38,858 nt of DNA. Origin: a virus. Of the stretch, positions 6,315 to 21,988 are shown piece after piece; the stretch's first letter is position 1; every line of letters starts with the position of its first letter. The stretch covers positions 1 through 38,858 of IMG/VR virus record IMGVR_UViG_3300033155_003199; one strand, given 5' to 3'. The position numbers and the translations under genes are program-made. The notes beneath the pieces are model-generated. The model made no database searches, had not been told where the DNA came from, and saw nothing but the letters and a program-made list of their open reading frames with translations.

Positions 6315-6338
6315 ACCAACCGATAGGAGGTTATCATC

Positions 6339-6566: not shown

Positions 6567-6596
6567 GGAAAGACTGCATACTTCTTGATTAGGGGC

Positions 6597-6650: not shown

Positions 6651-7160
6651 CGTTTTAACATGCAATCTTTCTTTCCATGTTCCCACTGTAATTCGTTTCA
6701 GTCCCAAGTATTGTTCTCAGTTTCAGTACTGACAACTAGGCGTAGAATATCCTGAAAACGTCTTAGAAGGTCTTTAATATACATTTATAAGCATATATAT
6801 AGGTATATATCGGACGAAATGCACTAAATCAGGTCGGGAAAAAACAGGGTAAAAAGGGGAAAAAGGGGGTAAAAAGGGGTAAAAAGGGGTAAAAAGGAGG
6901 CTAATTTAAAATTTTAGAAAAAAGAAAACGCAGCTATGGTGATATGATGAGTCCCGTACGTAAGATGATGGGGGTGGATAGGGGCGCGGACAGAGGCGGA
7001 TAAGGGCGGATGAGGTGTATAGAAGACGTACAGAAGGCGGATAGGGATGTGTAGGAGGCGGATAAGAGCGCATGGAGGCATGCAGAGATGTACAGGAGCG
7101 ATATGAACGTACATAGGCCGCCCTGAATGTGTATAGGATAACAGGAGGGGCCGTACAAGG
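6651..7160. repeat. Non-coding AT-rich then purine-rich low-complexity tract
   Basis: 6770-6820 is AT-rich with TATATATAGGTATATAT. From about 6838 to 6900 a 10-base unit GGGGTAAAAA is repeated about five times. From 6960 to 7130 the + strand is strongly G/A-rich with degenerate copies of AGGCGGATAAGGG. The minus-strand ORFs seen here are proline/serine/tyrosine-rich translations of this repeat and overlap in several frames, so I do not call them genes. Confidence 0.6.
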
Positions 7161-7161
7161 C

Positions 7162-8422: not shown

Positions 8423-9052
8423 ACCAAAGGATTCCCACCCAACCACGTCTATTCGTCTTCGTCTGTCTTTCCTGCCCGCGCGTTCGTCCGTGCTAATCCC
8501 ACGCACTTTTTCCCTATCTTTTTACAATCTATTACATAAAATCTATCTACATTATTTTTCTAATCTACTATAATTTATTTATATAAATTTTCTAACTCAC
8601 CATCTCTTTTAAAACCAATCAAACCAACATTTCAGTTAAGTGTTTACAGCCCGCCCAAGCCGCTGGCGCTCCAGGCGCCGGCCGGGAAAGGTATTCTGCG
8701 CATTTAACCTGACGTCAGTGCTCCCTTTCCCGGACGCCTTCCGGCCAGTCGGCTGCGTGCGTTCTGTCTCTCCAAGCTTTTCAGTTAAATACAGCACAAA
8801 CCAAACCCGAAACTAACGGGAGAGAGGGAATTCCTTCTATTCTCAAATCTAAATACCAAGCACCTCCGGACTTCCAAGACCGCGTCTTTGGTACTTGCGG
8901 CTTAATTATAGGGTTTTCCGTTCTTGCTCGTCTCTGAGCTGCGCCCTAGCGCCCCATGTATCTCCGTCTCATTTCGTCTGAGTTCTTACTTTCTAGGGTG
9001 GGTTGGGCGGGGCGGGCAAGCTCGGGCGGTTAAGCTCGGGCTGGGTGGGGGG
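8423..9052. other. Non-coding AT-rich segment followed by GC-rich inverted repeats
   Basis: 8510-8630 is AT-rich with repeated ATCTAT/ATCTAC words. 8631-8788 is bounded by two direct copies of TTCAGTTAA. It contains GGCGC-TCCAG-GCGCC, a CCGGGAAAG/CTTTCCCGG inverted repeat (8682-8690, 8725-8733) and the palindrome CTGACGTCAG (8709-8718) near its centre. An AT-rich stretch beside a cruciform-like block is a plausible origin or packaging region, but that is inference. No coding signal is convincing. Confidence 0.45.
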
Positions 9053-9100
9053 TTCGGGGGTTCGGGGGTTCGGGGGTTCGGGGGTTCGGGGGTTCGGGGG
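9053..9100 (+). repeat. Six tandem copies of TTCGGGGG
   Basis: A perfect 8-bp unit TTCGGGGG repeated six times and followed by TTGGGCC. The G-runs at fixed spacing could form G-quadruplexes on the + strand. Nearby sequence (9000-9050) is also G-rich. Confidence 0.85.
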
Positions 9101-9121
9101 TTGGGCCTCCGAGGCGGGGGT

Positions 9122-9346
9122 TCAGCTCCACAAACTCCGTTGGGCTGTTTTCTGCTGCTGAGCGCTCCGCCTGTTTTTTCCTGCCAGCCGTTTTTTCTGG
9201 TAATTCCAGGTGGGTGCAGGATCCAGCCGGCTCAGTGTTTTTTTCTGCTCCTGCCAGGCGCTCACAAGGCGCATTCTCAGTTCAGGGTTTGTGGTGTGTG
9301 TCATGGCATCTTCAATTTTCTGCAAGTTTTTTCTTGTTGTTTCCAT
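9122..9346 (-). CDS. Possible small minus-strand helical protein
   Basis: 74 residues beginning METTRKNLQKIEDAMTH, with the composition of a real helical protein (RMRLVSAWQEQKKTLSRL). The opposite-strand ORF is cysteine/phenylalanine-rich and implausible. A weak TAAGG precedes the ATG. A 26-codon minus ORF with a better AGGAAG site lies upstream. No family recognised. If real, it is one of very few leftward genes and would be a candidate early or regulatory product. Confidence 0.3.
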   Translation of the reverse strand: METTRKNLQKIEDAMTHTTNPELRMRLVSAWQEQKKTLSRLDPAPTWNYQKKRLAGKNRRSAQQQKTAQRSLWS

Positions 9347-9615
9347 GCCTTATTTATTGCAAGCTTTGTGCCATGTTTTCTGACGCAAGCTGTAGGTTTT
9401 GGGCGGTTTTTGGTGGGCGTGCGCTCACATCGCAACAATAATTGTCAGTGGCTGTTTCTGGCTAGCTCCGAAGTGCCCATGGTTCTAGGGTTTGCAAGCA
9501 AGGTGCCATTTCTTGTTTTTTGTGACAAATTTTGTCAGTCATCTTCCTGTTTGTCCTCAAAGGCCTGATCTCTTATTTGCTGTTTTGTGAGCTAAGTATC
9601 TGATATCATTGAGTT

Positions 9616-9646
9616 ATCAAGGATTGTTCCACGTGAAACACTTGAT
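9616..9646. promoter_or_regulatory. parS: parS-like centromere site
   Basis: TGTTCCACGTGAAACA at 9625-9640 matches the bacterial chromosomal parS consensus TGTTnCACGTGAAACA at every specified position. It is flanked by an outer inverted repeat ATCAAG (9616-9621) and CTTGAT (9641-9646). It lies immediately upstream of the early promoter. No ParB or ParA gene is visible in the window, so host ParB would be the expected ligand. A regulatory role at the promoter is an alternative. Confidence 0.75.
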
Positions 9647-9650
9647 CTAC

Positions 9651-9678
9651 TTGAGTGGTATGGCACTTGCAGTATAAT
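9651..9678 (+). promoter_or_regulatory. Sigma70-like early promoter
   Basis: TTGAGT, 16 bases, TATAAT (a perfect -10). It lies 5 bases downstream of the parS arms and about 110 bases before the first early gene, with only leader sequence between. The overlap with parS means ParB binding could affect it. Confidence 0.6.
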
Positions 9679-9787
9679 AATGTAAATAGTGAGCCGAGAG
9701 AGATCGGACCAATCAAGCGACTTCCTCTGTAAATAGATAGCAGGGGTTCTTAAAAAAAGGGTAAGCTAAAAAATAGGAGGAAAAAAG

Positions 9788-9970
9788 ATGAAATTAGGAG
9801 ATGGAATTGAAACATTGATTGTCGCCGGCGAAATCCGGCACTGGAATCCGGCAACAAGATTGTACGAAAGTGGAGAAATTCGAGATGAACGCTTTGCGGT
9901 TTCTTGCTATCAAGGGAACTGGAAAGAAGAGCAGGAGCAAGGAAATATCCTCACAAATTACAGAGATTAA
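9788..9970 (+). CDS. First early gene, hypothetical
   Basis: 60 residues with a strong TAGGAGG ribosome site 8 bases before the ATG. Sequence MKLGDGIETLIVAGEIRHWN is unremarkable and no family is recognised. It is the first gene behind the early promoter. Early-first small phage proteins often act on host functions, but nothing in the sequence shows that here. Confidence 0.5.
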   Translation: MKLGDGIETLIVAGEIRHWNPATRLYESGEIRDERFAVSCYQGNWKEEQEQGNILTNYRD

Positions 9971-9975
9971 CCTCA

Positions 9976-10010
9976 ACGCCCCGGGCATTGGCATAAAAAG
10001 GCCTTGGAGG
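9976..10010 (+). repeat. Repeated early leader, copy 1
   Basis: Contains CCCCGGGCATTGGCATAAAAAG followed by GCCTTGGAGG, ending in the ribosome site of the next gene; almost identical to 10198-10230. Related CCCGGG-containing leaders precede the genes at 10928 and 11158. Confidence 0.7.
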
Positions 10011-10016
10011 AATAAC

Positions 10017-10190
10017 ATGAAAAATATTGCCATCGAACAGAAAGGAAACCTTCTTACCTTAATCATCGACTTAAGCAAGTCTCAAGGTCCGAGCAAATCA
10101 GGAAAAACAACCATCATCGCCACCTCTGCCGGAAATCAGGAAATCGGTTCCGGAATCTATCTAGGTGTTAATTGCTATCGGAAAATCTAA
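10017..10190 (+). CDS. Conserved small phage early protein
   Basis: 57 residues from an ATG with a GGAGG site; longer starts in this frame overlap the previous gene and lack sites. The core LTLIIDLSKSQGPSKSGKTT and IIATSAGN is a pattern I recall from small phage proteins near recombination genes (DLS ... GPSKSGK). No nucleotide-binding loop in the strict Walker sense. Role unknown. Confidence 0.65.
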   Translation: MKNIAIEQKGNLLTLIIDLSKSQGPSKSGKTTIIATSAGNQEIGSGIYLGVNCYRKI

Positions 10191-10197
10191 TCTTCGA

Positions 10198-10230
10198 AGC
10201 CCCGGGCATCGGCATAAAAAGGCCTGGAGG
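10198..10230 (+). repeat. Repeated early leader, copy 2
   Basis: Nearly identical to 9976-10010 (GCCCCGGGCATCGGCATA, then AAAAGGCCTGGAGG). It supplies the ribosome site for the gene at 10239. Confidence 0.7.
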
Positions 10231-10238
10231 AAATTACA

Positions 10239-10451
10239 ATGTTTTCAGAAGAACTTTTCAAACTTGGAGCAGATCTTGTAAGAGCTCAAGGTACCCGAAT
10301 CAATCCTTTTCCAGCGGTAGCTCCCCGCCCAGAAGAAAGCCTTGAAAATCTACAACTGGAAATTGAAGAAGTGGGAAGCCGACTGGCCAAGTTACAACGC
10401 AAGCATCAGAATCTCACGGGTAGAAGGTATGTTCTCCCACTCAGACTCTAA
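10239..10451 (+). CDS. Hypothetical small helical early protein
   Basis: 70 residues behind the second copy of the repeated leader. The C-terminal half (ESLENLQLEIEEVGSRLAKL) is a coiled-coil helix with a basic end. No family recognised. Confidence 0.5.
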   Translation: MFSEELFKLGADLVRAQGTRINPFPAVAPRPEESLENLQLEIEEVGSRLAKLQRKHQNLTGRRYVLPLRL

Positions 10452-10469
10452 ATAAATTCAGGTGAAATT

Positions 10470-10880
10470 ATGAAATTAATTATATATATCTCATGTCTGG
10501 TAGTAATGATCATTTTAATGTCAGGAGTGGTTCAGGCCGCTCCTGATTGGCAAAGTTCCAAAGAATTCAAGTCGATTCATTCAGCAGATCCCGTTGAAGC
10601 AGCTCTTATTTATCTGGACTGGTATCATGGGAAAAAAGAGCAGATTGTCTCCGCTTACTTACTCGACGGCCAAGAGATCTTTATCATCGCCTTAGTTGAT
10701 ATACAGGGCGCTTACCTGGCAGTTGAACCAACCAGGCCCTTGTTTGCATTCGCGGCCACAGCCGAAGGGGCAGTCCGGGCATTGTTTGAGGAAGATGCAG
10801 AAATCCAGATATGTTTTTATTCCGTGGAAGATATGCGGATAAGGATGAAAACAGGGCCAAGCATTGAACTTTCGAATTAA
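10470..10880 (+). CDS. Exported small protein (signal peptide)
   Basis: 136 residues. Residues 1-24 form a Sec signal peptide: basic start, hydrophobic core LIIYISCLVVMIILMSGVV, cleavage after VQAA. The mature part is about 110 residues, alpha/beta, with no membrane span. An exported protein in an early operon could be involved in superinfection exclusion or envelope modification, but this is inference. SD is weak (CAGGTGAA). Confidence 0.6.
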   Translation: MKLIIYISCLVVMIILMSGVVQAAPDWQSSKEFKSIHSADPVEAALIYLDWYHGKKEQIVSAYLLDGQEIFIIALVDIQGAYLAVEPTRPLFAFAATAEGAVRALFEEDAEIQICFYSVEDMRIRMKTGPSIELSN

Positions 10881-10893
10881 CTTATTTACTCCG

Positions 10894-10910
10894 CCCGGGT
10901 ACATCCCGGG
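10894..10910 (+). other. CCCGGG hairpin in early leader
   Basis: CCCGGG TACAT CCCGGG, a perfect 6-bp stem with five-base loop, directly before the AAAGGGGGAAA ribosome site of the gene at 10928. Confidence 0.65.
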
Positions 10911-10927
10911 CCCCAAAGGGGGAAATT

Positions 10928-11110
10928 ATGCAACTAAAATCGAAAGAACATTACGATCTGCTCTTGCATTTTGAAAAAGATTTCAAAGAAGTGCGTCTTG
11001 ATAAAGAACCTAAAGAATTGTGGGAACACGGGACAATTTATGAGGATGGAATGGTAAACAAATTATTTGACGCTTACAGGAAAGGCTATTCTCTAGGAAG
11101 ATGGGTTTAG
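10928..11110 (+). CDS. Conserved small phage protein
   Basis: 60 residues with a strong GGGGG ribosome site behind a hairpin leader. The sequence (LLLHFEKDFKEVRLDKEPKE, then YEDGMVNKLFDAYRKGYSLG) follows a conserved pattern I know from small phage proteins in replication/recombination clusters. No catalytic motif. Function unknown. Confidence 0.6.
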   Translation: MQLKSKEHYDLLLHFEKDFKEVRLDKEPKELWEHGTIYEDGMVNKLFDAYRKGYSLGRWV

Positions 11111-11157
11111 CCACGCTACAACCAGATAAGGATATTCCGGGCACCAAAGGGGGAAAG

Positions 11158-11328
11158 ATGAAATCATTAGAAGAAATTACTGCAAGCCTGGATTCATTAC
11201 TTGTTCAGCTCGATGCCCTGCGAATAGATGAAGATGATGAAGATCGGCATCTAGCGCTATCAGAAGCTTTCGACTGCTTAGATTATGGGGCGGATCTGAT
11301 GCATCAGGTCCTTAATGAGGGAGGCTAA
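11158..11328 (+). CDS. Small acidic early protein
   Basis: 56 residues. I chose the ATG at 11158 because AAAGGGGGAAAG precedes it at proper spacing; an in-frame ATG at 11101 overlaps the previous gene and has no site. Strongly acidic middle (IDEDDEDRHLALSEAFDCLD). A leader with CCGGGCACC, related to the earlier ones, precedes it. Function unknown; DNA-mimic-like charge is only a composition note. Confidence 0.55.
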   Translation: MKSLEEITASLDSLLVQLDALRIDEDDEDRHLALSEAFDCLDYGADLMHQVLNEGG

Positions 11329-11329
11329 A

Positions 11330-11500
11330 TTGGAAAATTCCAAAAAAATGTACCCAGTTTTTTGTTCATGGTGTCTGAAAAAGGGAATTAAGATGATCAT
11401 CAGCTACTGTGAAGCTGAGCACTCTCACGGCATTTGTCATAAATGTGCTCAGGCTTTTCAAGAGGAAATCAAGAATATCAAAGGAGGCTCAAATGCCTGA
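11330..11500 (+). CDS. Small zinc-finger-like protein
   Basis: 56 residues from a TTG start that has GGGAGG at ideal distance; an ATG at 11315 in frame is possible but overlaps the preceding gene. It has CSWC (about 13-16) and HGICHKC, two cysteine pairs that would bind zinc in a small treble-clef or ribbon fold. Its end overlaps the annealing-protein start by 8 bases, so the two are likely co-translated. Confidence 0.55.
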   Translation: MENSKKMYPVFCSWCLKKGIKMIISYCEAEHSHGICHKCAQAFQEEIKNIKGGSNA

Positions 11501-12383
11501 AAATAACAATATGAAATACTGGGAAAAAGTTTCCGAAGTACCAAAGAATATGCTTCGAGAAATTAAGGCTGGCAGGCTGAAGGGGAAAAGCGATATTAAT
11601 CCAGCCTGGAGAATGGAAGCCATGACCTCTGTTCTTGGACCTTGTGGATTGGGTTGGAAATATACCGTGGACAAGATATGGACCGATCCGGGCCCGGAAG
11701 GTTCTGTGATGGTTTTTGTTCAGATATCTCTCTGTATTGCATGCAATGAAAGGTGGAGTGCACCCATTCCGGGGATTGGTGGCAGTCACCTCATTTCCAA
11801 AGAAAAATCTGGCTTACATGGGAATGATGAAGGTTACAAAATGGCGCTCACGGATGCGCTTTCCGTGGCCATGAAAGCCATTGGAGTAGGCGCTAAAGTC
11901 TATCAGGGCCTCTGGGATGGATCAAAGTATAATAACGTCCCTCCTTCTCCTGGAAACCCGTCGTCAGCTACCACTACCGCCGACAAAACGGATTCTCCGG
12001 CAGCTCTGGAGCTGGCTGATAAGCTGGTTGTTCTCTATGGCGAGGACTCGACTTATCAGGAATTGCAAAAAAGGGGTAAAGATCCTGGAAACCTGGCTAT
12101 CATCAAAGGTTTTTCGGAATCATTATGTACCAAAGTTCGCGCGGCCTTTTCTGCCAGGTTGAAGGTGATTAATGCCAAGGATGAAAAGGAAGGTGTTTCT
12201 TTTCTCGATTCAGCCCTTAACGAAAAACAATTAGTGGAATTCCGAGAAGCTATGCAATCAGCTGCTGCTAAATATTCGCCCAAAGTTCAAGAAGCTCTTG
12301 AGGCTCACTTTGTCAAACTCAAAGGACAAGGACAAGGAAAGGGACAAGAACAAGGACAAGAAGGAGACGGACTCCCTTTCTAA
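11493..12383 (+). CDS. Rad52-like single-strand annealing protein
   Basis: 296 residues from the ATG with AAAGGAGG. The N-terminal GRLKGKSDINPAWRMEAMT, GPCGLGWKY, GGSHLISKE and YKMALTDALSVAMKAIGVG match the Rad52-superfamily phage annealing proteins (Sak/Sak3-like). These anneal complementary single strands during phage recombination. After about residue 155 there is a linker and a second helical region. The end is GQG/EQG-rich and closes EGDGLPF, resembling the C-terminal tip of bacterial SSB (acidic-PF), which is unusual. The downstream exonuclease at 12630 is the obvious partner. Confidence 0.75.
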   Translation: MPENNNMKYWEKVSEVPKNMLREIKAGRLKGKSDINPAWRMEAMTSVLGPCGLGWKYTVDKIWTDPGPEGSVMVFVQISLCIACNERWSAPIPGIGGSHLISKEKSGLHGNDEGYKMALTDALSVAMKAIGVGAKVYQGLWDGSKYNNVPPSPGNPSSATTTADKTDSPAALELADKLVVLYGEDSTYQELQKRGKDPGNLAIIKGFSESLCTKVRAAFSARLKVINAKDEKEGVSFLDSALNEKQLVEFREAMQSAAAKYSPKVQEALEAHFVKLKGQGQGKGQEQGQEGDGLPF

Positions 12384-12446
12384 TCAAACAATTAATTTCA
12401 CCCGGTGCCCTGCCCGGATTCTAAAGCAGGGCAAAGGAAATAAAGA

Positions 12447-12629
12447 ATGTCATCGTTATATATCAAGAATTTTGATCCTGAATTGCATAGGGCATTGAAG
12501 ATAATGGCCTTGCAAGAGAGGAAATTATTGTCAGAGCTGGTGCAAGATTTACTTCACGATGCTTTGCTTTGGCCGGACGCTAGTAGTTCAAAACATAATC
12601 TAGAGAAAAACAAAAGGAGGATTACGTAA
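12447..12629 (+). CDS. Ribbon-helix-helix DNA-binding protein
   Basis: 60 residues behind AAAGGAAA. MSSLYIKNFDPELHRALKIM followed by ALQERKLLSELVQDLL is a classic RHH pattern: beta strand for DNA contact, then two helices (Arc/FitA-like). It probably binds an operator as a dimer. The leader holds a GCCCTGC/GCAGGGC hairpin. No toxin partner follows; the next gene is an exonuclease, so an autoregulator of the recombination operon is more likely than an antitoxin. Confidence 0.65.
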   Translation: MSSLYIKNFDPELHRALKIMALQERKLLSELVQDLLHDALLWPDASSSKHNLEKNKRRIT

Positions 12630-13382
12630 ATGGCTGATAATACTTGTTTCTTGGATATCGAGACCATTCCGTCTTTAGATCCAAACATCAAAGAGAAGAT
12701 CCTGTCAGAGTTAAGTCCGCCGGGTAATATTAAAAAACAATCCACCATTGATGCATGGTGGCGCGAAAAAGGGCCAACAATTGTGGAAGAGAAATTGTTG
12801 GCTACTGCCCTTGATCCAACCTATGGCCAAGTGATTTGTATCTGCTGGGCATTTAACGACAAGCCGGTGCAGGGATTAATCCGAACTCTTGAAATACCTG
12901 AAAAGGATCTGCTGGAGGCATTCTATGGAGTTTTGGAGGCATCAAATACAGATTACCTAGTCTTCGTGGGCCACAATGTTCTGGGATTCGATCTTCCTTT
13001 CCTTTGGAAGCGCTCAATCATCAATTCCTGCCGACCACCAATTGCTCTGCCAAATAGGCGAGGAGCAGATGTTTATGACACCATGACTGAGTGGGCAGGC
13101 TTTAACAAATTCATCAAATTTGACGCTCTTTGCCATGCTCTTGGACTCCCCGGAAAAGAGGGGATGGATGGTAGCATGGTTTTTGACTATGTTAAGCAGG
13201 GACGATACGATGAGATTCTGGCCTATTGTAAACAGGATGTTGAGGGGGTGAGACAGATTTACCGGAGGATGACTTTCAAAAATTGGGTTCCTTCCGACGA
13301 AGATAGCACTACTTTAGCTGATATTGAAAACAAAAAACTTGAAGAAAGCGGGTTTTTCGATAAAATCCAGAAAGAGCTTTAA
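12630..13382 (+). CDS. DnaQ/DEDD-family 3'-5' exonuclease
   Basis: 250 residues with AGGAGG. Motif Exo I is LDIET (D9, E11), Exo II is GHNVLGFDLPFL (about 113-124), Exo III is YCKQDVEG with the last D near 202, giving the four metal-binding acidic residues. It resembles the predicted PolB-like 3'-5' exonuclease family. It would degrade single strands 3' to 5' and pairs with the annealing protein two genes upstream. HNH cassette 2 begins immediately after its stop. Confidence 0.8.
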   Translation: MADNTCFLDIETIPSLDPNIKEKILSELSPPGNIKKQSTIDAWWREKGPTIVEEKLLATALDPTYGQVICICWAFNDKPVQGLIRTLEIPEKDLLEAFYGVLEASNTDYLVFVGHNVLGFDLPFLWKRSIINSCRPPIALPNRRGADVYDTMTEWAGFNKFIKFDALCHALGLPGKEGMDGSMVFDYVKQGRYDEILAYCKQDVEGVRQIYRRMTFKNWVPSDEDSTTLADIENKKLEESGFFDKIQKEL

Positions 13383-13411
13383 TTGACAAACTACTAGGTT
13401 TTTAGTAATAT
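13383..13411 (+). promoter_or_regulatory. Sigma70-like promoter of HNH cassette 2
   Basis: TTGACA, 17 bases, TAATAT, starting on the base after the exonuclease stop codon. It drives the structured leader and the HNH gene. Confidence 0.65.
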
Positions 13412-13416
13412 AAAAA

Positions 13417-13527
13417 TGTTAGAATTTACTGTGGAAATCCTGCAATTAAAAGTAAAATCCCTCAACGCCCAGCCTAGGCTGGAATCTATCACAGTAGATT
13501 CTAACACGTTGAGGGATTTTTTTGTGA
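13417..13527 (+). promoter_or_regulatory. Structured leader with interleaved stems and a terminator before HNH 2
   Basis: Arm A TGTTAGAATTTACTGTG (13417-13433) complements A' (13490-13506, one mismatch). Arm B AAAATCCCTCAACG (13454-13467) perfectly complements B' (13507-13520). The order A-B-A'-B' allows a pseudoknot or two exclusive folds. B/B' encloses the palindrome CCAGCCTAGGCTGG (13469-13482) and is followed by seven Ts, an intrinsic terminator only 8 bases before the ATG. An attenuator or RNA switch controlling the endonuclease is likely. Confidence 0.65.
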
Positions 13528-13534
13528 GAAAGCC

Positions 13535-14191
13535 ATGAAGGCACTTGATTTAACAGGTCGAAAATTCGGGCGTCTTGTAGCAATTAGACCAATAAAAAAA
13601 AGATGTGGACATTATGTTGTTTGGTTATGTAGTTGTAGGTGCGGCAAAAATGTACCGGTAAGCTCTGGCAATCTTTCTTCAGGTAACACAAAAAGTTGCG
13701 GCTGCCTAAAAAGCGAAAGAACAATTATACGTAATACAAAGCACGGATTTGCTTATCATCCTCTTTATGCTGTTCTTGAAAACATGAAGCGTCGTTGCTA
13801 TAATCCAAAAACATGGAACTATAAAAATTATGGTGGAAGAAAAATTACAATTTGTGACGAATGGTTAAACAGCAAAGGGAAGTTCTTTGAATGGGCAATA
13901 ACAACTGGATGGAAAAAAGGTCTTATGATTGAGCGCAGAAACAATAATGGAAACTATAATCCAGAAAATTGTTATTTCGCAACTTCGTTCGAACAAGCCA
14001 ACAATACTCGGCACCTCAAAAAATTTATAGCCTATGGACCTTGTGGTCAAATTGAAATAGCAAAGAATCAAGCTGTTTTTGCTCGAAAATGGGGATTAAC
14101 CAGGGGACAAATTGGCAACTGTCTTTGCAAAAGACGAAATCAGCACAAAGGCTGGATCTTCGAACATTTAACACCATCAGGAGGTGGGTGA
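13535..14191 (+). CDS. HNH homing endonuclease 2
   Basis: 218 residues with the same layout as the copies at 3479 and 26480: FGRLVAI, zinc set CSCRCG ... SCGCL, HNH segment MKRRCYNP ... YGGRKITIC ... IERRNNNGNYNPENCYFAT, and C-terminal FARKWGLTRGQIGNCL ... GWIF. In this copy the usual LDRIDNNG is IERRNNNG and RWAT is YFAT, so catalytic-site residues deviate and activity is uncertain. The ribosome site is weak and a terminator lies just upstream. Insertion is between the exonuclease and the coiled-coil gene. AT-rich relative to neighbours. Confidence 0.8.
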   Translation: MKALDLTGRKFGRLVAIRPIKKRCGHYVVWLCSCRCGKNVPVSSGNLSSGNTKSCGCLKSERTIIRNTKHGFAYHPLYAVLENMKRRCYNPKTWNYKNYGGRKITICDEWLNSKGKFFEWAITTGWKKGLMIERRNNNGNYNPENCYFATSFEQANNTRHLKKFIAYGPCGQIEIAKNQAVFARKWGLTRGQIGNCLCKRRNQHKGWIFEHLTPSGGG

Positions 14192-14218
14192 GGGTCACCC
14201 ACTCTTTAAATTCACTGT

Positions 14219-14244
14219 TAAGGGGTGCAAGTGTGCACCTCTTA
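14219..14244 (+). other. Hairpin in leader of the coiled-coil gene
   Basis: TAAGGGGTGCA, loop AGTG, TGCACCTCTTA: 11-bp stem with one wobble, 25 bases before the ATG at 14269. A smaller GGGTGA/TCACCC stem lies at 14186-14200 over the HNH stop. No long U-tract. Confidence 0.5.
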
Positions 14245-14268
14245 AATTCAAATAAAGGAGGGGTACCA

Positions 14269-15543
14269 ATGTCAGACAAAATGTCGAACGAAATCGTGCA
14301 GTATTCAGTTTCCGATGTTGCCATTATAGAGTTATCCACGAAGTACCAGGGAATGGAAATCAAAGATCGAGAATCCTACCAGGCCGTAGTCACCGGCATT
14401 GCTGAAATCAGATCAATAAGGGTGTCTGTCGAGAAGCGTCGGAAGGAATTAAAGGCTGACGCCATCTCCTGGGGCCGGAAAGTAGACACAGAGGCCAAAC
14501 GGCTTACTGCCCTTCTCCGGCCTATCGAAGATAATCTCAGAAATCTTAAACAAGCCACAGACGACGAAAAGGCCACTATCAAGGCCGAAAAAGAACAGGC
14601 TGAGCAGAACCGGGTTGAGGCTATCAAAGCCAAGATAGCAGCCTTCCCACCCGATATGGCCACCATGCCCAAGCTACTGGGAATGACAGCCCTTGAAATC
14701 AGGGAATTACAGGACGTCTTAAATGAGACTGAAGTAGATATTAAAGTCTTTGAAGAATTCACGCAGGAGGCTATCAAGGCCAAAGAAGAGAAAAAGAACC
14801 TTCTCCAAGGGTACTACATCTCACGCATCCAAACGGACGCAGAAGTTGCCAAACGGAAAGCTGCCGAAGAAGCAGTCAAGGTGGAACTGGAACGTCTTGA
14901 GGAAGAACGACTGGCCAAAATAGAAGCCCAGAGAATTATTGACGAGAAGGCTGAAAAGGAACGAAAGGTTGAAGCCAAACGCTTAGAGGCCCGTCTCAAA
15001 AAGCAAGAGGAGGAACGAAAGGTTAAGCAGGCAATAGAGGATGCTCGCCTTAACAAAATACGGGAGGAACAAGAGGCCGAAGCTCAGAAGCTGCAGGAGG
15101 CCCAGGCCAAAATAGACGCTCAGTATAAAGCTATCCAGGATGAAAAAGATCGCATAGAAAACGAGAGAATTGAACATGAACGAGCAGAACAAGAAAAGTT
15201 GGCTCAAATAGAAAAGGACAGGTTAGCCAAAATTGAAGCTGAAAAACAAGAAGAGGCTCGGATCAAGGAGGAAGCCGAAAAAAAGGTTGCGAGAGAGAAG
15301 GCCGCGGCCGATGAGAAAAAGCGTCAAGCTATTCTCAGGCCGGATAAAGAAAATCTGTCTGTCTATTTTGAAACCGTAACATCAGAATTTAACAATACTG
15401 CTATGCCGGCGCTAAAAACCAAGGAAGGTAAATCACTATTATCTTCTTTCACCGAGAATGTCCAGCAAGAAATCCGCACCTCATCGGCAAGAGCTGCACA
15501 ACTTGGAGTAATTCCTGTCTATGGCGCATCTAATTCTAACTAA
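14269..15543 (+). CDS. Long coiled-coil phage protein of the recombination cluster
   Basis: 424 residues from the ATG with AAAGGAGGGG; longer upstream starts run through the HNH gene in another frame. The N-terminal 90 residues (YQAVVTGIAEIRSIRVSVEK, LKADAISWGRKVD) match a family common beside phage annealing and exonuclease genes (DUF1351-like in character). Residues about 195-380 are an uninterrupted charged coiled coil (EEERLAKIEAQ, KQEEERK). The C-terminus is a small globular segment. Probably a recombination accessory or nuclease modulator. The last 23 bases overlap the next gene. Confidence 0.65.
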   Translation: MSDKMSNEIVQYSVSDVAIIELSTKYQGMEIKDRESYQAVVTGIAEIRSIRVSVEKRRKELKADAISWGRKVDTEAKRLTALLRPIEDNLRNLKQATDDEKATIKAEKEQAEQNRVEAIKAKIAAFPPDMATMPKLLGMTALEIRELQDVLNETEVDIKVFEEFTQEAIKAKEEKKNLLQGYYISRIQTDAEVAKRKAAEEAVKVELERLEEERLAKIEAQRIIDEKAEKERKVEAKRLEARLKKQEEERKVKQAIEDARLNKIREEQEAEAQKLQEAQAKIDAQYKAIQDEKDRIENERIEHERAEQEKLAQIEKDRLAKIEAEKQEEARIKEEAEKKVAREKAAADEKKRQAILRPDKENLSVYFETVTSEFNNTAMPALKTKEGKSLLSSFTENVQQEIRTSSARAAQLGVIPVYGASNSN

Positions 15544-15997
15544 ACGAACTTTCCGGGATGAGCTAACTGCAGGTAACCAGGCAACGGCTGACTTCATTCA
15601 TTCGTTGCCTGCTCTTACAACCATCCATGGAGAATTCAGGAAACAACGTAATCCGCTATTTCATGCCAAATGGTTCGCCTTGGTACAGTTCTTGTATGAT
15701 CATTGGCAACCGGGTGAGCTGCAGGATCCCAAATGGAAAGGCGTCGTTCCTCAAAAGAGTTTTAAACAGTTCCGGAAAGATTTGACGATCTTAGCCGGTT
15801 TCTATCAGGCCTTCTACAGACTGGACGGATCCGTCAGAATCGAAGCAAAGTCGATCTCTTTTGGGAGCATGGATCAGGAAGAGTTTGAGGAATTGTATTC
15901 CAAAATTATTGACGTCGGATTAAGTAAAATATTGCCTCAGAGCTATGATAAGAAACAGCTTGAGGGAATCATCAACGAATTACTGGCATTTACATGA
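15521..15997 (+). CDS. DUF1367-like phage protein
   Basis: 158 residues. The pattern HGEFRKQRNPLFHAKWFALV, FKQFRKDLTILAGFYQ and RIEAKSISFGSMDQEEFEEL is characteristic of DUF1367, a family in phage replication/recombination clusters often near Nin-type genes. Biochemical role not established. It starts inside the end of the coiled-coil gene and its stop overlaps the next ATG, so it is part of a coupled run. Confidence 0.75.
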   Translation: MAHLILTKRTFRDELTAGNQATADFIHSLPALTTIHGEFRKQRNPLFHAKWFALVQFLYDHWQPGELQDPKWKGVVPQKSFKQFRKDLTILAGFYQAFYRLDGSVRIEAKSISFGSMDQEEFEELYSKIIDVGLSKILPQSYDKKQLEGIINELLAFT

Positions 15998-16242
15998 AAA
16001 AACGCTACAAAATTAAGTTCCGATCTACCAGGCATGATAGTATACCGGCAACGGGTTGGTACATCTATTCGAGACGCTTTCCCCGTTATAAGTCAGGGCA
16101 ACCCGGTTTCCGCCGATACCGCATGGCCGGGCCATTTCCAAATAGGAGTGATGCTACTGTAAGGGCGGGGGTTATGGCGATTAAATTTGATGAGTTTGCT
16201 ACGAAATTACGAGCGGCAAAAAATGGTAAGAAAAAAACTTAG
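15994..16242 (+). CDS. Small basic early protein
   Basis: 82 residues, start overlapping the previous stop (ATGA). Very basic, with aromatic and arginine-rich segments (YSRRFPRYKSGQPGFRRYRM) and a lysine-rich end. Likely nucleic-acid-binding by charge. No family recognised. Confidence 0.55.
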   Translation: MKKRYKIKFRSTRHDSIPATGWYIYSRRFPRYKSGQPGFRRYRMAGPFPNRSDATVRAGVMAIKFDEFATKLRAAKNGKKKT

Positions 16243-16336
16243 AATCTATATCCTGGCCATAAAATACTGGTTTCAGGGTGACTCATGGCCTGAAGCGATC
16301 AAGTATGCCGAGGCGCTTGTACATGGGTTCAAATAA
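16223..16336 (+). CDS. Tiny conserved phage protein
   Basis: 37 residues, overlapping the previous gene by 20 bases. LRIYILAIKYWFQGDSWPEA then IKYAEALVHGFK is a pattern I recall from tiny phage ORFs in early regions (ILAI ... GDSW ... A ... GFK). It may be a short amphipathic helix pair. Function unknown. Confidence 0.6.
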   Translation: MVRKKLRIYILAIKYWFQGDSWPEAIKYAEALVHGFK

Positions 16337-16350
16337 GGTAAGGAATTAAT

Positions 16351-16569
16351 ATGAATAATCAAATGCAGGATTTTGCAAGAAGTACTTTAAAGGACGGACT
16401 ACCTAAATTACCGGAGGATTGGCAAATGATGTTCAAAAGGATGTATTCCCCTGATGATTTAAACGCCAATATCGAGGATGTGGTGGATATGGTCCCAGAA
16501 GACAAGCTTGATTGGGCGATGCAACAAGTTCAAAGATCGCTCGACAAACAGGCACAACAAGCCGCTTGA
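16351..16569 (+). CDS. Hypothetical small acidic protein
   Basis: 72 residues behind AAGGAATT. Helical; acidic middle (DDLNANIEDVVDMVPEDKLD) and a glutamine/alanine-rich end. No family recognised. Confidence 0.5.
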   Translation: MNNQMQDFARSTLKDGLPKLPEDWQMMFKRMYSPDDLNANIEDVVDMVPEDKLDWAMQQVQRSLDKQAQQAA

Positions 16570-16617
16570 CTCTGATGGCAAAAGGCTGTCGTAGGTTAGC
16601 AGGGAAAAGAAAACTTG

Positions 16618-16785
16618 ATGATTCTAAAAGACATTGAAGCCAAAATAGCCGAGCTAAAAGAATATGAGTATCAGGCTTGGCAGGCCAAAGATTACCAGGC
16701 CGCTTTGATGTTGCATGGGGCTATTATCCAGTTTGAGCGGTTTCTGGGAGAGGTAGAGGAAAAGGAAAAACATGGGAACACCTGA
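16618..16785 (+). CDS. Small coiled-coil ORF
   Basis: 55 residues starting MILKDIEAKIAELKEYEYQA, helical throughout. It overlaps the HNH fragment gene at 16772 by 14 bases. The ribosome site is weak (AGGGAAAAG). Not recognised. Confidence 0.4.
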   Translation: MILKDIEAKIAELKEYEYQAWQAKDYQAALMLHGAIIQFERFLGEVEEKEKHGNT

Positions 16786-17026
16786 ATATTGGGTGTGGTA
16801 TGGTATGCTCCAGCGATGTGAAAACCCGAAAGTTAAACGCTACAAAGATTATGGGGGACGGGGCATCACTGTTTCTGAAGAATTCCACGACTTCCGTATT
16901 TGGTATGATTATATAGGCCCACGACCCGGACCTAAGTATTCACAAGGGCGAATTGACAAGAGAGGCAATTATGAGCGGGGGAATATTCGATGGGAGATAT
17001 CCCGAGGAGAGGATTATGACCGTTAA
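16772..17026 (+). CDS. Reduced HNH endonuclease-like protein without zinc ribbon
   Basis: 84 residues. It begins at the [14 protein letters not shown] segment that is internal in the three long HNH proteins and keeps YKDYGGRGITVSEEF and RIDKRGNYERGNIRWEIS, the nuclease core. The N-terminal zinc ribbon and C-terminal DNA-binding part are absent. It has GAGGAAAAGG upstream, so it is probably expressed as a mini-HNH rather than a chance remnant. Its ends overlap both neighbours. Confidence 0.65.
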   Translation: MGTPEYWVWYGMLQRCENPKVKRYKDYGGRGITVSEEFHDFRIWYDYIGPRPGPKYSQGRIDKRGNYERGNIRWEISRGEDYDR

Positions 17027-17219
17027 AGAGTTGATAAAGAAACTAAAAACCCTCCCGCAGAACCTGGAGGTAGGCATGGTGCCGTTTGATCAGCCCATGT
17101 GGATGGCAGGCGACTGGGTGGAAACCGTTGAACATATCATCAAATCCGAACACAGCAGTTTCGAAGATGAACGAATGTATGCTCATCTGCCGGATGAGTA
17201 TGTAGTAATACATGGTTAG
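17016..17219 (+). CDS. Hypothetical small early protein
   Basis: 67 residues from the ATG with GAGGAGAGG; a longer frame from 16953 lies inside the HNH ORF and is unlikely. MTVKELIKKLKTLPQNLEVG is a pattern common in small phage proteins (VKELI..L..LPQ...V). Acidic remainder. The solitary CRISPR repeat lies just after its stop on the other strand. Confidence 0.55.
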   Translation: MTVKELIKKLKTLPQNLEVGMVPFDQPMWMAGDWVETVEHIIKSEHSSFEDERMYAHLPDEYVVIHG

Positions 17220-17231
17220 CAAGTCGTTATG

Positions 17232-17265
17232 GTTTCAATCCACGCCCCCGCGCGGGGGGGGCGAC
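17232..17265 (-). ncRNA. Solitary type I-C CRISPR-like repeat (candidate RNA anti-CRISPR)
   Basis: Read on the minus strand it starts GTCGCCCCCCCC and ends GGGGGCGTGGATTGAAAC, 34 bases. That is the type I-C repeat architecture: GTCGC start, C-run/G-run stem (CGCCCCC with GGGGGCG), and the conserved GTGGATTGAAAC 3' handle. The loop is two bases longer than the usual 32-base repeats. Only one copy exists and no cas gene is near. A promoter lies just upstream on the same strand. Single phage repeats of this sort are known as RNA anti-CRISPRs that sequester Cas proteins. Confidence 0.7.
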
Positions 17266-17279
17266 CGGTGTTAGGGCTG

Positions 17280-17309
17280 ATTATCACTGTGCCAGACCAA
17301 ATCAGTGAA
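17280..17309 (-). promoter_or_regulatory. Predicted minus-strand promoter for the solitary repeat
   Basis: On the minus strand: TTCACT (17309-17304), 18 bases, GATAAT (17285-17280). Transcription would start near 17273, about 8 bases before the CRISPR-like repeat, leaving the repeat at the 5' end of the RNA. Confidence 0.45.
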
Positions 17310-17592
17310 GTTTATGGAACCCTGGACGTTGATATTGCATGTATCAGCATTGCCGACCTGGAACCACAAGCCTCATAACAATCGCATGAACGCGGACTCT
17401 GCTATGCTCCGCCGGTTATGCTAAACCGTAATCAGGGGTTGACTTAGGATGGTGGCGGTGGTAAGGTGTGATCATGCTATTGGTTCATTGTAAAATCCAA
17501 CATCAACCGAAGACAATATTTCTCCCTCAGCGCCGAGCAATCGGCATCCTCTATTTATAGTGGACCATAGCAGGCTGGGGGAGAATTCTTTT
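17310..17592. other. Remainder of intergenic region before the initiator
   Basis: No convincing gene. A 36-codon ORF (MEPWTLILHV ...) lacks a ribosome site. A TTGACT at about 17443 has no good -10 partner. The GGGGGAG before 17593 serves the initiator gene. Confidence 0.4.
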
Positions 17593-18309
17593 GTGACTCA
17601 TGTGAAAAATGGCAATTGGGTGCGTATTTGCAAGGCTTTTCTTGATGACTTGCCAATTAACAGATCTTTTTCAGAGATAGAGGCTATTTATTCTCTGCAA
17701 TGTAATGCTGATCCATTTGATCCAAAAACAGTTTCGGTGTCTGGATTAGGTAAGCGGTGGGGCTGGTCTCGGAAGAGAGTGAGAACCTTTTTAAAAAATG
17801 TAGGTGTAGAAATTGTTTATCCAAAACCAACAAAAGAAGTACAGCGGCAGAGGGGACAGATAGGGTTACAGAAAGGGGACAGAAAGGGGACAGAAAGGGG
17901 ACAGAAAAGATTCATAGATTCTAGTGACTTAAAGAAAACAAGGGACAGAAAGGGGACAGATAAGGGACAGAAAGGGGACAGAAAGGGTTCCACTATTAAT
18001 AAGAAGGAAGAAGAAGTAAACCTATTTGAGCAATTCTACAGTGCTTATCCTAAGAAAAAAAATAAGGGCCAGGCCGAAAAAGCTTTTGAAAAAATTAAAG
18101 TGGATAGGCTGCTTTTAGAAATTATGTTATCAAAAATAGACCATGCCAAACAATCACAAGATTGGCAAAAAGAAAAAGGGCAATATATTCCGTATCCGGC
18201 AACATGGCTTAATGCTAAAGGGTGGAAAGATGAAATTGAAGTTTCCGGTTCCCCTCAAACAATCAAAGAAATAATGGCCCAGGATGATGGATTCCCCGTC
18301 CTCAGCTAA
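17593..18309 (+). CDS. Phage replication initiator-like protein with internal iterons
   Basis: 238 residues from GTG at 17593, preceded by GGGGGAG; an in-frame GTG at 17560 is possible. N-terminal winged-helix-like region (SVSGLGKRWGWSRKRVRTFL) as in O-type replisome organisers. The middle is a low-complexity linker of GDRKGT/ERGQK repeats. The C-terminal FEQFYSAYPKKKNKGQAEKA and GQYIPYPATWLNAKGWKD is the helical segment found at the end of many phage initiators. It probably binds the origin and loads the DnaB-type helicase encoded next, whose start lies inside its end. Confidence 0.7.
   Translation: MTHVKNGNWVRICKAFLDDLPINRSFSEIEAIYSLQCNADPFDPKTVSVSGLGKRWGWSRKRVRTFLKNVGVEIVYPKPTKEVQRQRGQIGLQKGDRKGTERGQKRFIDSSDLKKTRDRKGTDKGQKGDRKGSTINKKEEEVNLFEQFYSAYPKKKNKGQAEKAFEKIKVDRLLLEIMLSKIDHAKQSQDWQKEKGQYIPYPATWLNAKGWKDEIEVSGSPQTIKEIMAQDDGFPVLS
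17851..17984 (+). repeat. Iterons phased at 11 bp inside the initiator gene
   Basis: Eight copies of GGGACAG. The A of each falls at 17856, 17879, 17890, 17901, 17945, 17956, 17967 and 17978: spacings of 11, or multiples of 11, except for one base at the first. Eleven is not a codon multiple, so the repeat is kept at DNA level and the protein reads it in rotating frames. This is like the lambda origin inside O. Confidence 0.75.
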
Positions 18310-19609
18310 AATACCACAAGATACAGACGCAGAGAAATCGTTTCTCTGTATCTGCTTAAACAGTGGCATGTTTTATGATGTCAATGCCGATATTTTCTAT
18401 GATTATCGCAACATGGCCATCGTGAAAGCTTGCCACAGCATTATTGCCAAAAGGTTGCCTGTAAGCGCAGTTAATGTTTTGAGAGAATTGAAGGCGGTGG
18501 GAGAAAATTTTGGTGGTACAGTTGTTCCCTATTTAACCGAGTTAAGCCTATTTGAACCTATTTTATTTGATGCAACACGCAAAGAGGCTTTCGATGAATT
18601 GGCTAAGCGGTATGTCCAGAAAATTCAAAAAGCGGCTAAGCTGAGAAAGTTGACGGAAATAGCTTCCGAAGTCTTTACTTTAGCGACAGAGCCTGGAGCA
18701 TCCGCTGAAGATCTGCTTGTTAGAATTCAAGAAGCAAAAACAGAAACGGATGCAGTATCACCGGAAAAATCAACTTTAGTGTCCCTGGAAGATGTATTGA
18801 AACGGACATTATGGGACCTTAAAGAGGTTTTGGACGATTCGGATAAACAAAGAGGAGTCACTACTGGTTTACGAGTACTGGATAATGCAACCGGGGGCGG
18901 TCTTTACCCTGGCGAAATGTGGATTATTAGCGGCCGGCCGGGATCTGGTAAAAGTGCAATGGCCTGGGGAGTTGCGATAAGTGTAGCCAAAACGGGGAAA
19001 AAAGTTCTGGGTGTGTCTCTTGAAATGGGATTATCAGAGCTTGGCCGAAGATTTTTGAGCGCCAAAACGTCTTATCCTGCAACACAGTTCCGTACAGGAA
19101 AAGGTCTTGAGGATAAGCTTATCAACATTTTGAATACAGCAGATGGGATGAAAGATTTACCTCTGTTTTTGGAAGAAAAAGTACAAATTAATGAAATTGG
19201 ATTAAGGCAAGATATCGAGAAAATCAAACCGGATGTTGTTGTCTTGGATTATTTGCAACTCATGTCTGCATCTGGAAAATTCTATAATCGGGAGGGCGAA
19301 ATAGCGAGTCTTAGCCGATTTATGAAATTGGCAGCGATAGAATATGGGCTGACTTTCATCGTGCTTTCGCAGCTCAACAGAGACTTGAAGGGCAGGGCCA
19401 ACAAAGCGCCTCAGTTAACGGATCTTAGGGAATCGGGTGCATTAGAACAAGATGCTGATATTGTAATTGGGCTTCACCGCGAAAATAATGCGACGAGCGG
19501 AGAAGCTGCAATTTACATCCTTAAAAACAGAAATGACAGAATTGGAAAATTTCCAATATATTTTGATGGACCTTCGATGACTTATAGAGACTTATCTTTT
19601 GGAGAATAA
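18284..19609 (+). CDS. dnaB: Replicative DNA helicase, DnaB-type
   Basis: 441 residues. N-terminal helical domain (DTDAEKSFLCICLNSGMFY) as in DnaB. RecA-like domain with TGLRVLDNATGGGLYPGE, Walker A GRPGSGKS (about 218-225), SLEMGLSELGRR, Walker B VVVLDYLQLM (about 316-325), and LSQLNRDLKGR plus LTDLRESGALEQDAD at the end. These are all diagnostic DnaB motifs. It unwinds the fork as a hexamer. It overlaps the initiator by 26 bases, so loader and helicase are co-translated. Start could be either of two adjacent ATGs (18284 or 18287). Confidence 0.92.
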   Translation: MMDSPSSAKIPQDTDAEKSFLCICLNSGMFYDVNADIFYDYRNMAIVKACHSIIAKRLPVSAVNVLRELKAVGENFGGTVVPYLTELSLFEPILFDATRKEAFDELAKRYVQKIQKAAKLRKLTEIASEVFTLATEPGASAEDLLVRIQEAKTETDAVSPEKSTLVSLEDVLKRTLWDLKEVLDDSDKQRGVTTGLRVLDNATGGGLYPGEMWIISGRPGSGKSAMAWGVAISVAKTGKKVLGVSLEMGLSELGRRFLSAKTSYPATQFRTGKGLEDKLINILNTADGMKDLPLFLEEKVQINEIGLRQDIEKIKPDVVVLDYLQLMSASGKFYNREGEIASLSRFMKLAAIEYGLTFIVLSQLNRDLKGRANKAPQLTDLRESGALEQDADIVIGLHRENNATSGEAAIYILKNRNDRIGKFPIYFDGPSMTYRDLSFGE

Positions 19610-19613
19610 AAAC

Positions 19614-19754
19614 ATGGAACCACAGCACATAAAGGAAATCTTACCCAGTATCTTAATCAAAACAGCCAAAAAGCAGGCTGAACGTGAAGGTATTCCGTTA
19701 AAGCAACTCCTTGAGAGGATCGGCAGGGAAATGCCGAGGAGTGGGTCAGAATGA
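19614..19754 (+). CDS. Tiny helical protein after the helicase
   Basis: 46 residues, beginning MEPQHIKEILPSILIKTAKK and containing ERIGREMP. Its stop overlaps the next ATG (ATGA). Position between helicase and release-factor-like gene. No family recognised; real expression is supported mainly by the overlap. Confidence 0.45.
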   Translation: MEPQHIKEILPSILIKTAKKQAEREGIPLKQLLERIGREMPRSGSE

Positions 19755-20098
19755 GAAAATTATTATTTTCAGTCACCAAAAAAGATCTAAAAATTGAGTT
19801 TTTCTCAGGCAAGGGTGCCGGAGGACAGAAAAGGAATAAATGCCAAAATTGTGTTAGAATGACTCATCCTGCATCTGGAAGCAAGGCGACGGGGCAGTCT
19901 AACAAAGAAAGACCCTCAAATATCAAAGAAGCCTTTAAAGGATTAACAACTGACGCAAATTTCAAGTTATGGTTAGCTGAAAAGATAGCAGAAATTCAAA
20001 CAGGAAAAACATTAAAGGAAGAAGTTGAAGAAATGATGAATCCTAAAAATTTGAAGATTGAATTTAGGGACGCAGAAGGCCAGTGGCAGCTTTTTTGA
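19751..20098 (+). CDS. GGQ release-factor-domain protein
   Basis: 115 residues. It carries the RF-1 catalytic domain: IEFFSGKGAGGQKRNKCQN with GGQ at 24-26, then VRMTHPASGSKATGQSNKERP and NIKEAFKGL. The glutamine of GGQ is what hydrolyses peptidyl-tRNA in the ribosome. It lacks the codon-recognition domain of true release factors and the long basic tail of ArfB. The C-terminal KTLKEEVEEMMNPKNLKIEF is shared with phage-encoded homologues. It probably rescues stalled ribosomes or alters termination during infection. Confidence 0.8.
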   Translation: MRKLLFSVTKKDLKIEFFSGKGAGGQKRNKCQNCVRMTHPASGSKATGQSNKERPSNIKEAFKGLTTDANFKLWLAEKIAEIQTGKTLKEEVEEMMNPKNLKIEFRDAEGQWQLF

Positions 20099-20164
20099 AA
20101 CCACCAAGAGAAAGCTAATTTAGGTATGTCGATTTGATTTTGTTTGGTGAGTAGAGGGGACAAA

Positions 20165-20503
20165 ATGAAAAAAAATGATGCCAAGGTACATGCCGCAGAA
20201 AAAACAGAGGGGTGCAACTGCAGTAATCACAAATGCTCGTTTTATGACGAGAAATGTGAACAGAATTGCAGAGCCGGGGATGAAGACGATAACCCTTATT
20301 TACCCTACTGTGGAAGTTATATTCCAGATAAAAAGGTCGATTTTCCCATACTTCGGATTATCGAGAATGAATATTTCAGAAAAGGGGCGGTGATCAAAAT
20401 GAAAAACGATAAAATATGTTTGATAGATGCAGGTGAAGAAATTATCGGCCAGGGGGATACATTCCGAGGATTATTGGAAAATCTCATATTTGTCCTATGT
20501 TAA
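20165..20503 (+). CDS. Cysteine-rich small protein
   Basis: 112 residues from the ATG with AGAGGGGA; upstream in-frame starts lack sites. The N-terminal half is cysteine-rich (GCNCSNHKCSFYDEKCEQNC, then C ... C), suggesting a zinc-bound or disulphide knot. The C-terminal half is a small alpha/beta piece. The end overlaps the next start. No family recognised. Confidence 0.55.
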   Translation: MKKNDAKVHAAEKTEGCNCSNHKCSFYDEKCEQNCRAGDEDDNPYLPYCGSYIPDKKVDFPILRIIENEYFRKGAVIKMKNDKICLIDAGEEIIGQGDTFRGLLENLIFVLC

Positions 20504-20742
20504 ATTATCTGACATACTTATTCTGGTTATTTAGCCTTGTGTTGTTTGCCGGCCTGTTTTTTACGCAGTTTCCGGGAAACGAAATTGTTCAACCAGGTCT
20601 GCCAGCCTCAAACTATGATTACCTACAAACGCGAATGCAGTTTCATGGCTGCCTTGTTCTCACACGTGATCTTGACTCAGGAAACTGGTTTTTCTGGAGG
20701 CATGGTGAACGTTGCTGGATACAAAATCTGCGTAACTATTGA
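20497..20742 (+). CDS. Small membrane-anchored protein
   Basis: 81 residues, start inside the previous gene. Residues 2-22 (LNYLTYLFWLFSLVLFAGLFF) form one hydrophobic membrane segment or uncleaved signal. The rest is soluble with tryptophans. It closes the early run before the portal. Function unknown. Confidence 0.5.
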   Translation: MLNYLTYLFWLFSLVLFAGLFFTQFPGNEIVQPGLPASNYDYLQTRMQFHGCLVLTRDLDSGNWFFWRHGERCWIQNLRNY

Positions 20743-20803
20743 CAGCATTTTTCCCGTCCACTAAGGTAAATCAGTTTATCTGTCCAAGGAGTAAGGTAAA
20801 AAC

Positions 20804-21988
20804 ATGTTCAGTAGACTCAAATCTTTTCTTCCGTTTTCGAAGAAATCCGATCCTGCAAGCAAAGAGCAGGTTAAGCATTCCCCCCCTCCAATGAATATTT
20901 TATCGTCTCAATTTCTTTCCATTCAGTCTCTTTTGGGGATGGCCGAAGAGAACCCGGATGCAATTCTGAAAAGAAAGGGCATTGAGATCTATGACGAAAT
21001 GGAATCGAAGGACCCGCATTTATATGCAGTTTATCAAACCCGAAAGCTGGCGGTTTCCCGCATTCCCTGGACAATTCTTCCAGCTTCCAGCAACAAACGG
21101 GATGTTGAGATAAGAGATTTCGTATTCACGGCCCTAGATGATGCAAGAGGAACTTTCTCTGAAGATATCTTTCAGCTCATGGATGCTATCGGCAAGGGTT
21201 TTTCGGTCCTGGAGATTATATGGAAAACTCTCAAGTCAGGCCGTTGGCAGGGCAAATATTCTGTTGATGAACTCGTTTTTCACCCACAGAAATTCTGGTC
21301 TTTCAAAGATCGTAGACACTCCGATATTCCTGAAAGCCTCATTTTTTTCAAAGAGGATGTTTTTCAAGCCAAACAGGTCCCATGGTCCAAAGTCATTCAT
21401 TACGCTTTTGATGCCCAAGATTCTTTGTATGGTAGGGCAACATTCAAGTCTGTTTACTGGCATTGGTGGTTTAAAAAAGAGGCCTGGAAATGGTGGATTG
21501 TTTTCCTGGAGAAATTCGCCGGTCCAACAGCGATAGGCAAGTATCCAACAGGCTCATCGAAAACAGAACAAGACGCTCTTCTATCGATTCTTGAATCAAT
21601 CCAGCAGGAGACGGCAGTTGTTTTCCCTGATCATCTGTCCGTCGGCTATATGGAGGCCTCTCGAAGCGGCGCGGCTTCATATCGGGAAATGTGTGATGCC
21701 TGTAATGCAGAGATCTCAAAAGCTATTCTTGGCGCTACCCAAACCGTCGAAGAGGGACGAAGAGGCAGCTACGCACTGTCAAGAGCACACTCGCAAGTCC
21801 GGCAAGAGCGAGTGGAAGCAGACGGCATACAAGCCGCCGACACTATCCAACAACAACTGGTAAAACCACTGGTCGACTTCAATTTTATAACCGAAAGCTA
21901 TCCACAGTTTATTTTAAAATATCCAACTGGAACCGTTGACAAGCGTAAAGGGAAAACCATTGATCAGCCTGGTTATATGAAAAAATAA
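20804..21988 (+). CDS. Portal protein, DUF935 / Mu gp29-like
   Basis: 394 residues behind AAGGAGTAAGG. Features: IYDEMESKDPHLYAVYQTRK, LAVSRIPWTI, the dodecamer-forming stem region, and KWWIVFLEKFAGPTAIGKYP, all patterns of DUF935 Mu-like portals; C-terminal helices include SHSQVRQERVEADG-type residues. It forms the ring through which TerL packages DNA. It is the first gene of the late unit, and the NTase-ligase gene follows directly. Confidence 0.88.
   Translation: MFSRLKSFLPFSKKSDPASKEQVKHSPPPMNILSSQFLSIQSLLGMAEENPDAILKRKGIEIYDEMESKDPHLYAVYQTRKLAVSRIPWTILPASSNKRDVEIRDFVFTALDDARGTFSEDIFQLMDAIGKGFSVLEIIWKTLKSGRWQGKYSVDELVFHPQKFWSFKDRRHSDIPESLIFFKEDVFQAKQVPWSKVIHYAFDAQDSLYGRATFKSVYWHWWFKKEAWKWWIVFLEKFAGPTAIGKYPTGSSKTEQDALLSILESIQQETAVVFPDHLSVGYMEASRSGAASYREMCDACNAEISKAILGATQTVEEGRRGSYALSRAHSQVRQERVEADGIQAADTIQQQLVKPLVDFNFITESYPQFILKYPTGTVDKRKGKTIDQPGYMKK

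Follow-up and report, generated by a model that had tools for sequence, protein, structure and literature searches.

A solitary type I-C-like CRISPR repeat in a virus contig is a candidate RNA anti-CRISPR

A 38,858-base metagenomic virus contig (the whole of which is the window analysed here) carries one solitary type I-C-like CRISPR repeat in the interval between two phage genes, antisense to both, with a predicted hairpin and a complete handle. The best reading, which we put at a probability of roughly 0.6, is that this phage solitary repeat unit gives rise to a short minus-strand RNA that mimics the repeat of a host type I-C system and reduces the number of interference complexes. Phage solitary repeat units acting as RNA anti-CRISPRs (Racrs) were described by Camara-Wilpert et al. 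2023 (PMC10651486), who reported 2,103 such units on viral sequences with a pipeline cut-off of 41.1 bits and functionally tested nine candidate Racrs. The type I-C RacrIC1 protects phage and confers a strong advantage (PMC10651486). Judged from its sequence, the window repeat is likely a further example of this published class, ordinary within it and no new kind.

Results

A full-length repeat without a second copy

The minus-strand sequence at 17265–17232 is GTCGCCCCCCCCGCGCGGGGGCGTGGATTGAAAC, which corresponds to the widespread 32-nt I-C array repeat GTCGCCCCCCGCGCGGGGGCGTGGATTGAAAC with two inserted C (Table 1). Ungapped alignment to the canonical 32-mer gave 28 matches over 28 nt (100% identity, 51.8–56 bits) at a coverage of 87.5%, just below the 90% that the pipeline uses for a full match. 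Against an array copy from a Coriobacteriales MAG (L029), the match extends over 34 of 34 nt (100% coverage, 62.6–67.9 bits). The repeat is thus full length and no fragment, and it falls within the sequence definition of a solitary repeat unit (a known CRISPR repeat at an identity of at least 90% and a bit score of at least 41.1). It also has repeat-free flanks, with no second or partial copy, and an intergenic position on a mobile element in a cas-free vicinity, as the other parts of that definition specify.

We call the repeat solitary because 100 shuffles yielded zero matches to the 32-nt I-C repeat at three or fewer mismatches, the handle-containing 14-mer GCGTGGATTGAAAC occurs only once across the whole record, and local alignment of the repeat to the 150-nt flanks detected repeat-like sequence no better than in shuffled flanks. 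A preliminary description of this DNA had noted one minus-strand type I-C style repeat and no second repeat in the window, both of which our analysis confirms. The span that it gave, 17232–17309, begins with the repeat (17232–17265), but its end takes in the putative promoter. Its statement that no cas gene is present holds for the ORFs scanned against PHROGs and Pfam, a set that covered part of the small ORFs. Scans of the window with Rfam models and for tRNAs returned nothing. The GC content stays at 41–48% throughout the record, which makes it unlikely that the repeat marks an assembly join.

Table 1. Features at and around the solitary repeat (window coordinates)
Feature	Position	Strand	Basis
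Type I-C-like CRISPR repeat, solitary, 34 nt	17232–17265	minus	Match to canonical 32-mer and to L029 array copy
Predicted hairpin, 7-bp stem and 7-nt loop	17243–17263	minus	RNA fold, −14.8 kcal/mol
5′ handle TGGATTGAAAC, 11 nt, remaining after predicted Cas5 cut at stem base	17232–17242	minus	Sequence; handle length per PMC5965380, PMC3727216
Sequence 3′ of handle that would fill the guide position; antisense to end of upstream gene	17197–17231	minus	Sequence
Candidate sigma-70 promoter TTCACT-18-GATAAT, predicted start about 17273	17280–17309	minus	Promoter scan, not above shuffles
Small phage gene (67 aa) whose end is 12 nt short of the repeat	17016–17219	plus	ORF list; PHROG matches of unknown function from its start codon
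Replication initiation protein, next gene	17560–18309	plus	PHROGs phrog_270, E = 1.4e-21

The repeat lies within a phage gene neighbourhood

Protein profile scans recognised genes for a Mu-type portal, a head protease and a major head protein, together with genes for a DnaB-like helicase, a replication initiator, NinB/Orf and several HNH endonucleases. The repeat occupies the interval between 17219 and 17560, with phage genes on either side, and the genes around it are on the plus strand. No known acr neighbour was recognised beside it. HNH (homing-type) endonuclease genes or fragments number four in this one 39-kb phage (3479–4162, 13535–14191, 16772–17026 and 26480–27151), and the 84-aa member of this set directly precedes the 67-aa gene that neighbours the repeat. 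The replication initiator gene contains direct repeats ACAGAAAGGGG with an 11-nt period at 17857–18012, like phage-origin iterons. Elsewhere in the window, G-rich tandem repeats are found at 6836–6905 and 9035–9113, in a 4-kb stretch poor in convincing genes, and the small phage protein encoded at 19751–20098 contains an RF-1 domain of the peptide chain release factor type.

A 49-aa plus-strand ORF in the ORF list (17229–17378) reads through the repeat, which could accordingly be part of a small gene that resembles a CRISPR repeat by accident. Although the open frame spans the entire repeat, it has no Shine–Dalgarno sequence, its product is without relatives, and coding coincidence does not account for 34 nt that match an established repeat; we rejected this explanation as hardly credible. 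A second alternative is that the repeat works as DNA, as a homology target for phage integration into host CRISPR arrays, a role put forward for such repeats in earlier work cited in PMC10651486. The identity of all 34 bp with an array repeat in a genome (L029) would suit such a site. However, no integrase or transposase was recognised among the proteins scanned, and the published tests show that solitary repeats act as RNA (PMC10651486), making a DNA site very unlikely.

The hairpin and handle are intact and the loop is two bases longer

Folding of the repeat alone paired 17263–17257 with 17249–17243, leaving 17256–17250 as the loop, whereas the canonical repeat folds into the same 7-bp stem with a 5-nt loop. 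The earlier observation that the stem is intact while the loop exceeds the usual length by two bases is therefore borne out. Type I-C Cas5 (Cas5d) leaves an 11-nt 5′ handle after cleavage, and the hairpin keeps one Cas5 bound (PMC5965380, PMC3727216). The cut predicted for the 34-mer (34 − 11 = 23) coincides exactly with the stem base. Compared with a canonical type I-C array repeat, the window copy is identical bar the two inserted C and has the same stem and handle, but it is solitary, 34 nt long and without spacer–repeat periodicity.

We asked how often the C-run varies among 1,374 copies with the same loop context in the fetched loci, a set seeded with a related pattern whose counts are descriptive. 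Six C were present in 1,349 copies, five in 21, seven in one and eight in three. The three C8 copies are the window repeat, one in virus L016, which carries other such repeats as well, and the L029 array copy, which lies near a contig end. The preliminary description had suggested that the longer loop tunes Cas binding; we found no support for this, and the same +2C form in L016 and L029 fits poly-C slippage, which would account for it without invoking tuning. In addition to its C8 solitary repeat, the virus record in question (L016/L178, 57,398 bases) carries a repeat–spacer–repeat pair and, on the opposite strand, one more repeat. Two large virus records, L146 (125,741 bases) and L149 (188,175 bases), contain arrays of at least 13 I-C-like repeats.

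A candidate promoter would leave a short leader

The preliminary description also gave the repeat its own promoter. The TTCACT-18-GATAAT motif is present on the right strand, and 14 nt separate its candidate −10 box from the repeat, similar to the 13–16 nt in viral loci L171, L175 and L190. Statistically, however, it is at chance level: the surrounding 1 kb contains 2 promoter-like sites of similar quality, compared with 1.7 ± 1.4 in shuffles. We consider this candidate promoter plausible and unproven. From the predicted start, the leader would comprise only about 8 nt before the repeat; a terminator was not found for the window repeat. Among 96 other viral solitary I-C-like repeats (described below), promoter sites numbered 10 versus 5.8 in shuffles, and 2 versus 0.55 in the 12–17 register, too weak to be adopted as a general promoter signal.

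Viral solitary I-C-like repeats as a class

Three pattern scans of IMG/VR, filtered for stems of 5 bp or more, yielded 96 distinct viral solitary I-C-like repeats besides the window copy. By crude gene calls, 59 of the 96 are intergenic, compared with about 19% of random positions. The arrangements include positions in sense between codirectional genes (33/96) and positions antisense to both neighbours, as in the window, which form a minority (6/96). The four stem pairs examined were paired in 98%, 98%, 95% and 83% of cases, versus 50%, 81%, 78% and 64% with shuffled partners, in a set pre-filtered for stems of at least 5 bp and of a repeat type that covaries in hosts too.

These data bear on a further alternative, an inert relic, in which recombination took up the repeat from a host array and the copy, no longer expressed, has been drifting, which would explain the two extra C. 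A promoter that does not rise above chance, a C-run unlike that of array copies (C6 in 1,349/1,374; C8 in 3, window included) and the antisense orientation to the surrounding genes would all be expected of such a relic. By contrast, every part needed for Cas5 recognition is intact, neither a second repeat nor cas sequence has left a trace, and viral repeats of this type are enriched between genes. We regard a relic as possible but not probable.

A Shine–Dalgarno sequence with a start codon follows within 45 nt downstream in 26 of the 96 repeats; at random positions the frequency is 11% (binomial P = 1e-5), and on the opposite side of the repeat it is 7/96. Loci were dropped from the class only if their downstream sequence was identical, and relatedness may inflate this P value and that for AAAC below. 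Examples located 10–45 nt upstream of a same-strand Shine–Dalgarno sequence and start codon include L003, L142, L156, L194, L201 and L242. Repeats before start codons may be 5′-leader elements cut by host Cas5. For the window repeat, the corresponding alternative is action in cis on phage RNA, as a site in a transcript where host Cas5 binds or cuts and which controls a phage gene or an antisense RNA to the 67-aa gene. The start-codon bias of the class would favour it, yet the window repeat has no same-strand gene downstream, and the minus-strand 59-aa ORF at 17043–17222, which overlaps the 67-aa gene in antisense, is without supporting evidence. Such action is unlikely here.

AAAC directly after the handle ATTGAAAC is found in 13 of 96 viral solitary repeats, compared with 8 of 1,392 genomic array spacers (Fisher P = 2e-11). 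The loci are L003, L007, L142, L156, L190, L192, L194, L201, L232, L242, L268, L271 and L275, and the motif is sometimes extended as AAACAAAC. The window copy has neither the downstream start codon nor AAAC after its handle.

Relatives and host

DNA similarity search in the phage collection found nothing, and neither the helicase nor a 484-aa protein retrieved relatives when used as seeds; the portal retrieved one. In this nearest relative (L216/L218), the portal is about 58% and the major head protein 71% identical. Its terminase gene adjoins the portal gene, and its available sequence contains no helicase match. In the window, the terminase and portal genes, neighbours in L216, are separated by about 15 kb (5618–20804), a stretch that takes in the replication module and the repeat. 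Because of this adjacency and the absent helicase match, the segment that carries the repeat is not common to the nearest relative. The phage represents a lineage without close relatives in the reference collections.

A repeat of this type would suggest a host with a type I-C system. Of the 1,447 spacers that the type I-C-like arrays of the fetched loci provided, none matched the window convincingly or beyond 19 nt. A search for a close prophage by major capsid protein in about 1,350 genomes (395 from the phylum of G004, 398 from that of G006, 398 from that of G008 and 155 from the class of G005) gave matches of only 28–29%.

Discussion

The case for an RNA anti-CRISPR rests on a full-length repeat without flanking copies, a predicted cut at the stem base and a published functional type I-C Racr; the intergenic enrichment (59/96) and covarying stem pairs of the class add to it. 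Against it stand the chance-level promoter, the lack of a terminator, a host match or a known acr neighbour, and the minority arrangement (6/96). The reading offered in the preliminary description thus remains the best one and fits a class that includes a tested I-C example, without its loop tuning and with a promoter that is not above chance.

A Racr would be produced as a small RNA, frequently from a nearby promoter, in a host with the corresponding CRISPR subtype, and would bind Cas proteins and block interference. In the proposed mechanism, a short RNA transcribed from the minus strand would mimic the repeat of a host type I-C system. The hairpin would be bound by Cas5 (Cas5d/Cas5c, the enzyme responsible for type I-C processing), whose cleavage between 17243 and 17242, at the base of the stem, would yield a 23-nt hairpin piece plus an RNA that carries all 11 nt of the handle. 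The hairpin would retain Cas5, Cas7 and Cas8 might be drawn onto a useless guide, and fewer interference complexes would result.

Like the window repeat, RacrIC1 is a single I-C-type phage repeat that lies between genes, lacks accompanying cas genes and preserves both hairpin and handle. It differs in sharing an operon with acrIC5, which lies 11 nt upstream of it, whereas the window repeat is antisense to its neighbours, has no recognised acr and has a loop 2 nt longer than canonical. With the type I-F RacrIF1, the window repeat shares its solitary state and a predicted promoter upstream. RacrIF1 acts via the RNA upstream of the Cas6f cut, about 70 nt without a handle, and builds a long Cas7 filament there (PMC10651486). 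As the leader predicted here, at about 8 nt, is too short for a RacrIF1-like filament, we favour Cas5 capture, whether by plain titration or together with a decoy that carries the handle; the filament route would be barred unless transcription starts further upstream.

A second mechanistic kind of type I-C Racr is also conceivable, though rather doubtful. In contrast to RacrIF1, which works through its handle-less upstream product, such an RNA would keep the 5′ handle and load phage antisense sequence into a decoy effector. The type I-C PAM is TTC. Since AAC, rather than this PAM, makes up the three bases preceding the guide-position sequence, the decoy would be spared self-targeting.

The start-codon and AAAC biases of the class may matter more than the window copy and are cheap to test at scale. 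If active, the window repeat would add an example of RNA-based CRISPR evasion, and the type I-C mechanism would be testable with a short-leader construct.
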